Below are positions 3,541-6,117 of a stretch of 64,000 nt of DNA, one piece after another. Every line of letters starts with the position of its first letter. Within the stretch, counting starts at the first letter, position 1. The DNA is from Synechococcus sp. Nb3U1 (lineage in GTDB: Bacteria; Cyanobacteriota; Cyanobacteriia; Thermostichales; Thermostichaceae). Location: assembly GCF_021533835.1 (NCBI RefSeq), contig NZ_JAKFYQ010000001.1, positions 716,079-780,078 on the forward strand, in the 5' to 3' direction. Made by a program: the position numbers and the translations under genes. The notes beneath the pieces were generated by a model, which saw only the letters and a list, made by a program, of their open reading frames with translations, made no database searches and was not told where the DNA came from.

Positions 3541-4473
3541 TTAGTAGCCGAAATCTCCTTTGAAGAAGAACCGGGCTGTATGGAAAAAGAGCGGGCTAAC
3601 CCAAAGCAGACTATCCACCCGATCCAAAATGCCACCGTGCCCGGGCAACAACTCACCGAAATCTTTAATGCCCAAATCTCGTTTGAACGCACTCATCACC
3701 AAATCCCCCACTTGCCCACCGATTCCCACCAACAATCCGGTGATCCCCACCAGCCAAACTGGAAAATGGGGAAAGGCGATGGGCCAGTTCAAATAGGCCA
3801 GTGCCAAACTGGAAACCAAGGCCATCAGGGATCCCTCGATCGTCTTTTTGGGGGAAAGGCGTGTCCAAGGGGTTTTACCCAACAACTTACCCCATAAGAA
3901 AGCCAACGCATCATTAAATTGGGTAGCCAGCACCACATAGAGCACATAGCCCACCCCGTAGTGAGACTGGCTGAGGTAGCCGAGATGGGCCAAAAACCAA
4001 CCAAAGTAAACGAGGCCAATAATGGTGAGAGCCACCCGCTGAATCGACTCCTCATAACGGTTGGTGAATACGGGTAGGGCTGTGGCCATGGCCGCTCCCC
4101 AAACTGGCAAAGCCATGAACAAGCCATAATTGCCGGAAGCAGCACACAGAGCCAGGCCAATAATAACGACATAAACCAATGCCACATAGATTCGGTGGAC
4201 ATAGAGGCCCGTCCCACGGGCAAATTCCTTGAAGCCGTATACGGAGATCAGAGCCACTAGGGCAATCCAAGCGTTAGCACCGATCCACAACGGTAGAAAG
4301 ATCAGCGGCAGTAACACCGACCAAGTTAGGTAGGGTTTCTTAGCCACAGGCAAGGGTTTTAGCCAGATCAATGCCCCCAAACCTAGGTAGACAACTACCG
4401 CCAAGCCTGTATAAAACCCCAGCACCACCAGCCGAGGGGAGACTTCTAATCTCTCTACCCAAAACTCCAACAT
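3541..4473 (-). CDS. cdsA: Phosphatidate cytidylyltransferase (CDP-diglyceride synthase)
   Basis: Makes CDP-diacylglycerol from phosphatidate and CTP, the precursor of phosphatidylglycerol, in the membrane. The 310-residue protein has about eight hydrophobic segments and the CdsA signature near its C-terminus: SAFKRDLGIKDFGELLPGHG followed by GILDRVDS. The upstream region KTPWTRLSPKKTIEGSLMAL is also typical of the family. ATG 4473 is preferred over TTG 4482 because AGGAG sits 9 nt upstream. The gene is convergent with the MFS gene at 2196-3476. Confidence 0.92.
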   Translation of the reverse strand: MLEFWVERLEVSPRLVVLGFYTGLAVVVYLGLGALIWLKPLPVAKKPYLTWSVLLPLIFLPLWIGANAWIALVALISVYGFKEFARGTGLYVHRIYVALVYVVIIGLALCAASGNYGLFMALPVWGAAMATALPVFTNRYEESIQRVALTIIGLVYFGWFLAHLGYLSQSHYGVGYVLYVVLATQFNDALAFLWGKLLGKTPWTRLSPKKTIEGSLMALVSSLALAYLNWPIAFPHFPVWLVGITGLLVGIGGQVGDLVMSAFKRDLGIKDFGELLPGHGGILDRVDSLLWVSPLFFHTARFFFKGDFGY

Positions 4474-4708
4474 CTTGTGCAACTCCTGTCGCTAACCCTA
4501 CTGTAGTTAGCCTCCGCTAAATTACCCATTGGCTGAATCCAGGTCAGGAGATGACCCCGTTGGGGAAGTGCGGAAAACCGTGGTCTTCGGGATGATTGAT
4601 CCAGATCACAGACAAATCTTGTAGAATAAAAGTTTACGAAGGTATCGACTCCGTCAGCGCGGATCCCCTATCTCCTACAACCCAGAGACCTGACCCAAGG
4701 ATTAACCT
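4474..4708. other. Intergenic region between cdsA and the 24-residue peptide gene
   Basis: This region lies between divergent reading directions and must hold promoters for cdsA (minus) and the tiny plus-strand gene. A TAGAAT -10-like hexamer sits at 4622-4627 but no -35 with normal spacing was found. No RNA gene was recognised. Confidence 0.4.
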
Positions 4709-4783
4709 ATGACGCTGGTTGCACTGTTTATTTTCGTGATGTATTTGATCGTCTCCAACTTGAATGCTCAAGCGGAGCGATAG
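4709..4783 (+). CDS. 24-residue single-span membrane peptide
   Basis: ATG 4709 follows AAGG (4697-4700) by 8 nt and opens a 24-codon frame: MTLVALFIFVMYLIVSNLNA then QAER and TAG. The first 16 residues form one uninterrupted hydrophobic helix followed by a short polar, charged tail. This architecture resembles the very small subunits of photosystems and the cytochrome b6f complex, but the sequence matches none that I can name (not PetL, PetN, PetM, PsbM, PsbT, PsaM or PsbN). It stands alone, with 144 nt before the next gene. A chance ORF is possible, but the ribosome site plus a perfect transmembrane profile make translation plausible. Confidence 0.5.
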   Translation: MTLVALFIFVMYLIVSNLNAQAER

Positions 4784-4926: not shown

Positions 4927-6117
4927 ATGGAAGCCCGGGATCCCAGCTCGATTTTGTGGGCGCAGGTGTTTGGCTTGGCCGCTATCCAGGGAGCCATCGC
5001 GCTGACCTGGGTAATTTATAACCTTTACTTGCCCAACCTGTTGGTGGACATGGGCTTGGCGGCAGGTTTGGCCACGGGCCTGTTGATTATTGAGAATCTG
5101 CTGGGGGCGGTGATGGAGCCCCTGATGGGCAGTTTTTCCGACCAAACCCAACGCTGGTTGGGCAGTCGTTTTCCCTTCGTATCGGTGGGGGTGATCCTCT
5201 CAGCGGCTTGTTTTATCGCCATCCCAGCGGTGGCTTTTTTGGGGGCCGATGCAGCGGATTGGATGCGATCTCTGCTCGTCTTTTTTTTGGTGGCCTGGGC
5301 CGTGTGCATGACGATCTTCCGCAGCCCGGCACTGTCCCTGTTGGGACGTTATGCTTTTTCGTCGGGGTTGCCTCAGGCAGCCAGTATTTTGACCTTAGTG
5401 GGTGGTGTAGCGGGAGCGATGGGGCCATTGGCTAGTGGGTTCATTTTGGATCTGGGGCCTTGGGTAGCCTTCGGGGTAGGCTCAGCGGTGTTGCTCTTGG
5501 CGGCTCTGGCGTTGCGCCTCGCCAATCCTGGCCAAACGGTTCATGACAAAGACTCGGATGCGGGCGAAGCAGCTCCTTTTGTCTGGTGGGGGTTGATCTG
5601 GGTGTTCGGGGCCGGGGTAGGGGTAGGGCTGGGCTTTCGCATGTTGATGACGGCTTTCCCGCAGGTGTTGGCCGCACAAGCACCGCAAGCGAATGTAGGC
5701 TGGGTGCTGGGATCCATCTTCCTAAGCCTGGCATTGACGGCGGTACCGATGGGTTCTTTGGCCAGTCGCTGGGGTAACCAACGGGCAATGGCCATTGGGT
5801 TGGGTTTGATGGGTGGGTTGTTGGCCTTGACGTTGCTCAGTGGGAGTACACTACTGGCGGTTATCATTGCCCTTTGCATTGGGGCTACCTTTAGTTTGGT
5901 TTCCAATGGCAGCATTCCCTTTGCCCTGTCGATGGTACCTGCGGCGCGGGCGGGGTTGGGCACTGGCATCTATTTCAGTGGGGGGGCAGTAGCCTCTAGC
6001 CTGTTTGGCCTACTGTTTGCCCAGGCCAAGTTTGAACCTACGGTTTTGGCTTTAATCGGCGTAGTGGCCTTTCTTGCGGCGGGGTTTTGTGTAATTTGTA
6101 GCCGTCCGCTCCATTAG
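4927..6117 (+). CDS. MFS / sugar-cation-symporter-like transporter
   Basis: A 396-residue integral membrane protein with about 12 predicted spans. The N-terminus (IYNLYLPNLLVDMG, ENLLGAVMEPLMGSFSD) resembles the GPH/SLC45-like branch of the major facilitator superfamily, and the loop RWLGSRFPFV matches the family's first cytoplasmic loop. A soluble linker around DKDSDAGEAA separates the two six-helix halves. AGGGGAAGC precedes the ATG. The substrate is unknown. It is transcribed alone and converges on the minus-strand GAF-protein gene. Two 12-bp direct repeats (6115-6126, 6128-6139) span its stop codon. Confidence 0.75.
   Translation: MEARDPSSILWAQVFGLAAIQGAIALTWVIYNLYLPNLLVDMGLAAGLATGLLIIENLLGAVMEPLMGSFSDQTQRWLGSRFPFVSVGVILSAACFIAIPAVAFLGADAADWMRSLLVFFLVAWAVCMTIFRSPALSLLGRYAFSSGLPQAASILTLVGGVAGAMGPLASGFILDLGPWVAFGVGSAVLLLAALALRLANPGQTVHDKDSDAGEAAPFVWWGLIWVFGAGVGVGLGFRMLMTAFPQVLAAQAPQANVGWVLGSIFLSLALTAVPMGSLASRWGNQRAMAIGLGLMGGLLALTLLSGSTLLAVIIALCIGATFSLVSNGSIPFALSMVPAARAGLGTGIYFSGGAVASSLFGLLFAQAKFEPTVLALIGVVAFLAAGFCVICSRPLH

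Follow-up and report, generated by a model that had tools for sequence, protein, structure and literature searches.

A conserved, free-standing 24-codon frame in Synechococcus sp. Nb3U1 predicted to encode a single-helix membrane peptide

In cyanobacteria, tiny membrane proteins that are specific to one genus are already known, for example HliR1 of Synechocystis, which has 35 amino acids, is encoded upstream of sodB and is induced by high light (PMC5126843). The shortest annotated conserved cyanobacterial protein is PetN with 29 amino acids (PMC5126843). Among the type I toxins, MsoT1 of Microcystis has 63 amino acids and two predicted helices (PMC12390103). Here we describe an even shorter frame, found in a window of 64,000 nucleotides from Synechococcus sp. 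Nb3U1, a member of the genus that holds the JA-3-3Ab-like Synechococcus (Thermostichus). The gene lies at 4709-4783 on the forward strand and has 24 codons, beginning with an ATG at 4709 and followed by a stop codon TAG at 4781-4783; the product is MTLVALFIFVMYLIVSNLNAQAER.

The original prediction had claimed a ribosome site, a short frame, a single hydrophobic helix and a QAER tail, and all of these are borne out. The ribosome binding site AAGGA (4697-4701, forward strand) is located 7 nt upstream of the ATG and is kept in three congeners; in all four loci, AAGGA and the ACCTATG that follows it are unchanged. Based on hydropathy, the peptide has one predicted transmembrane segment (L3-L18, 4715-4762), and its largest 15-residue Kyte-Doolittle mean is 2.81. 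The helix is followed by the polar C-terminal tail NAQAER (4763-4780), and LNAQA is invariant in the four species. To place these features in context, both strands of the window contain 340 ATG frames of 20-40 amino acids, of which two are strongly hydrophobic and 12 have a ribosome-site core; the peptide frame is the only one that combines a strong hydrophobic segment with such a core. A single copy of the gene was found in its own genome.

Upstream of the frame, a putative -10 element (TAGAAT, 4622-4627, forward strand) was recognised from conservation in the four-locus alignment. It reads TAGAAT in G001, TAAAAT in G005 and TAAGAT in G002, and is kept across the loci at roughly 80-100 bases 5' of the frame. 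As no consensus sigma-70 promoter at the locus passed the promoter scanner, we infer the promoter from this conservation. The corresponding 5' untranslated region would span 4635-4708; it has no unusual secondary structure, and the 5' region and mRNA fold no better than shuffled sequences.

To analyse whether the frame is conserved, we compared six genomes of the genus, namely that of the window (G000) and five congeners (G001-G005). The same frame, with its start and ribosome site, is present in three of the five: G005, G001 and G002, with 100%, 83% and 87% amino acid identity, respectively. The G005 peptide is thus identical to that of the window, whereas G001 encodes MALVALFLFVVYLIVSSLNAQAER and G002 encodes MALVALFIFVMYLIVSRLNAQAD. 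The stop codon is at the same position in two of these congeners, and the third reaches it one codon sooner. Across the 22 codons compared, there are 6, 1 and 12 variable columns at codon positions 1, 2 and 3, respectively (P=0.0017). Between G000 and G001, 12 base differences result in four residue changes, where about eight are expected by chance (P=0.004), and between G000 and G002, the same number of base differences results in two (about eight expected, P=5e-5). The pair G000-G005 has no amino acid replacement, and the other pairs have dN/dS values of about 0.05-0.1, with dS reaching about 0.6-1.2 in the more distant pairs. Pairwise identity is 80-94% inside the frame and 70-95% across the 20 bases before it, and falls to about the level of shuffled sequences 3' of the stop codon in most pairs. 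Conservation thus ends at the stop codon, which implies that the frame itself is what is kept. Together with the third-position bias and the deficit of replacements, this drop indicates purifying selection on the translated frame and hence translation of the peptide. Of the first 22 residues, 18 do not vary, Y12, S16, N19 and Q21 among them; this conservation is gauged over the short divergence of four homologues from a single genus.

We next turn to the genomic context. The gene had been described as standing alone, and its surroundings agree with this. In the window, its upstream neighbour is cdsA, which runs on the opposite strand (3541-4482); downstream, an MFS transporter gene on the same strand (4927-6117) starts about 144 bp 3' of the peptide gene. 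The neighbours are different in the other genomes: a cdsA fragment and a HAD hydrolase gene in G005, an alpha/beta hydrolase and a beta-helix-like protein in G002, and radA and a Uma2-type gene on either side of the peptide gene in G001. The only flank shared among the four loci is the upstream cdsA side of G000 and G005, and the gene 3' of the peptide is convergent in G005 and G002. These differing neighbourhoods show a free-standing unit, which we consider to be a genuine monocistronic gene. No partner gene travels with the peptide across the four loci, and since the neighbours vary, the neighbourhood does not name one.

Two side observations concern these flanks. A combined-query search with the window cdsA yielded no match at E<=1e-30 in G001-G004 and a partial copy in G005; this cdsA may have diverged or been acquired, or the other copies may have escaped the combined query. 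In G005, a TnpB-like transposon gene seems to interrupt a HAD hydrolase gene (L093:1740-3751), close to a tandem repeat region that contains N runs.

The peptide was not detected in G003 and G004, nor elsewhere in the family and order, and a search for the ribosome-site pattern in G003, G004 and G006-G008 revealed no hydrophobic 24-mer among the readable frames. A two-gene tree places G001, G003 and G004 on one side and G002, G000 and G005 on the other (100% support), with only 53% support for the pairing of G003 and G004; the peptide is thus present on both sides. G004 is syntenic with the G001 locus; its spacer between radA and the Uma2-type gene (L096:2886-3143) is shorter, non-homologous and devoid of a peptide copy. 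The original prediction had named the lack of a conserved frame between syntenic flanks as evidence against the gene: three congeners keep the frame, but just this lack is observed in G004 when compared to G001. The simplest history suggested by the sequences is that of an ancestral gene of the genus that was lost in the line of G003 and G004, and its absence there implies that the peptide is dispensable in these two genomes. Beyond the genus, a sample of 386 genomes of the phylum contained no credible homologue. Matches such as those in G055 and G249 (E of about 0.002-0.01 per genome) are partial or do not have the matching start and tail, and were discounted because matches this weak would arise by chance among 386 genomes. 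Searches of phages, plasmids and viral contigs gave nothing above the threshold. The PHROG family phrog_27908 (function unknown) was rejected, as its match is weak (E 0.01) and the third homologue gives none. In the genome contig database, the sole match is the G002 record, a metagenome-assembled genome (MAG) of an uncultured cyanobacterium.

From these data, we consider it about evenly balanced (probability around 0.5) that the gene, a true monocistronic unit, encodes a single-pass peptide of 24 residues that inserts into the membrane and packs against a larger integral-membrane protein, which it would serve as accessory subunit or small regulator. Its basis in the sequence comparison is a ribosome site of its own, a frame under selection, inheritance across rearranged loci and absence from one sub-lineage. 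The peptide would insert as one helix, with the NAQAER tail probably in the cytoplasm, an orientation guessed from two charges. Since residues including polar ones are invariant despite high synonymous divergence, we infer that the helix packs specifically against a helix of a larger membrane protein; such a contact suits the pattern of invariance better than generic hydrophobicity does. Bound in this way, the peptide might stabilise or tune the partner complex. We class it as a lineage-specific micro-membrane protein, most likely one that serves a membrane complex as auxiliary helix. As candidate partners we would list thylakoid complexes first, especially cytochrome b6f; complexes of respiration or transport are just as conceivable.

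The original prediction had likened the peptide to tiny subunits of photosynthetic complexes, which holds for size and shape but not for identity, as it matches none of the named subunits. That no named subunit could be matched was likewise claimed and is confirmed here: Pfam and NCBIfam contain no family above the cut-off, and PDB chains yielded only weak matches, to unrelated proteins. Most canonical small subunits are moreover encoded elsewhere in the same genome, where our query searches found PetG, PetN, PsaI, PsaJ, PsbI-PsbM, PsbT, PsbX and PsbZ, as well as a weak match to PsbY; Psb30 was found in all six congeners. For PsaM, matches were confined to G001 and G004, and PetM was seen only doubtfully, as the tail of a PetG match, in G004; misses with these queries carry little weight. 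A canonical small subunit is expected throughout the genus and the phylum. The peptide does not have this distribution: it is missing from two congeners and from the remainder of the phylum as sampled here, which speaks against a core subunit.

The peptide might nevertheless belong to a photosynthetic complex as a lineage-specific auxiliary subunit, a reading made more plausible by the failure to find PetL in the genus and by its reported absence from MAGs of Thermostichales. Neither the Pfam model nor three solved PetL sequences detected PetL in any of the six congeners, and a 2024 survey reports that none of its MAGs has petL and that many Thermostichales lack petM or petN (PMC11304991). The size and single helix of the peptide would agree with a shortened or replaced PetL, most plausibly at the PetL site of cytochrome b6f. 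Yet there is neither an alignment nor a profile similarity to PetL, and the peptide does not have the basic, KLI-like C-terminus of the three solved PetLs. G003 and G004 lack both the peptide and a detectable PetL, and the loci that we examined contain no PetL-like small frames. Furthermore, the 'missing' PetL is a weak argument, as the Pfam model is insensitive for cyanobacteria and scores the S. elongatus control below its cut-off. We thus regard this substitution as unlikely, and consider it similarly doubtful, if slightly more so, that a previously unseen Thermostichus-specific subunit of cytochrome b6f (or of another thylakoid complex) fills a site freed by the missing PetL.

The peptide might also be a hydrophobic type I toxin repressed by an antisense RNA. 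It is short, free-standing and restricted to one lineage, has one helix, and a system of this kind has been described in Microcystis (PMC12390103). Opposite its 5' region, there is a terminator-like hairpin with a T-rich tail (4654-4636, reverse strand). This hairpin is weak, however, and although readable in G005, it is not kept in G001 or G002. The usual site of the antisense promoter, 3' of the stop codon, contains no conserved sequence, and the 5' region does not fold better than shuffles. Finally, one copy per genome and a near-invariant sequence that extends to polar positions speak against a toxin, which we judge improbable.

The end NAQA-ER/D resembles an AxA motif, so that the helix could be cleaved after AQA to release a signal or pheromone, or could be the remnant of a secreted protein. 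This is hardly probable, as the peptide has no basic n-region and no receptor or exporter gene accompanies it; a decayed longer gene is excluded, since the stop codon is at the same place or one codon off in all four genomes. A chance open frame, retained through close relatedness, would account for so short a frame in so few genomes, but is very improbable given the codon-position bias, the replacement deficit, the sharp loss of identity at the stop and the survival in different loci. A leader peptide controlling the MFS gene, which follows on the same strand in the window, can be dismissed almost entirely: the four genomes have unrelated genes at this position, two of them in convergent orientation, which excludes this role, and no regulatory RNA family was matched.

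The accessory membrane peptide that we propose adds a well-supported and probably unannotated membrane protein gene of 24 codons to a deep-branching lineage, and the approach illustrates that frames of <30 codons can be validated by codon-level selection across rearranged loci. Should its partner be a thylakoid complex, the peptide would be relevant to how early-branching cyanobacteria cope with reduced sets of b6f and photosystem subunits, and as a true subunit of b6f or another thylakoid complex it would be among the smallest of any photosynthetic complex.

When comparing the peptide to known systems, type I toxins (the TisB/Ibs class and MsoT1) share its short hydrophobic helix and stand-alone gene, but no antisense element was found at the locus. 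The helix end of KdpF (about 29 amino acids), YL...NA.A, superficially resembles the peptide; this identity was rejected because kdpA is absent from all six congeners (G000-G005). PetL, PetN, PsbT and PsaM (29-32 amino acids) share the single helix and short tail, whereas they are conserved far past one genus and the 24-residue peptide has no sequence match to them. HliR1 differs in being longer, adjacent to sodB and induced by high light, and we claim no sequence relation; like the peptide, it is a very small protein of cyanobacteria in which a transmembrane region is likely, and it has no homologue found beyond its genus (PMC5126843).
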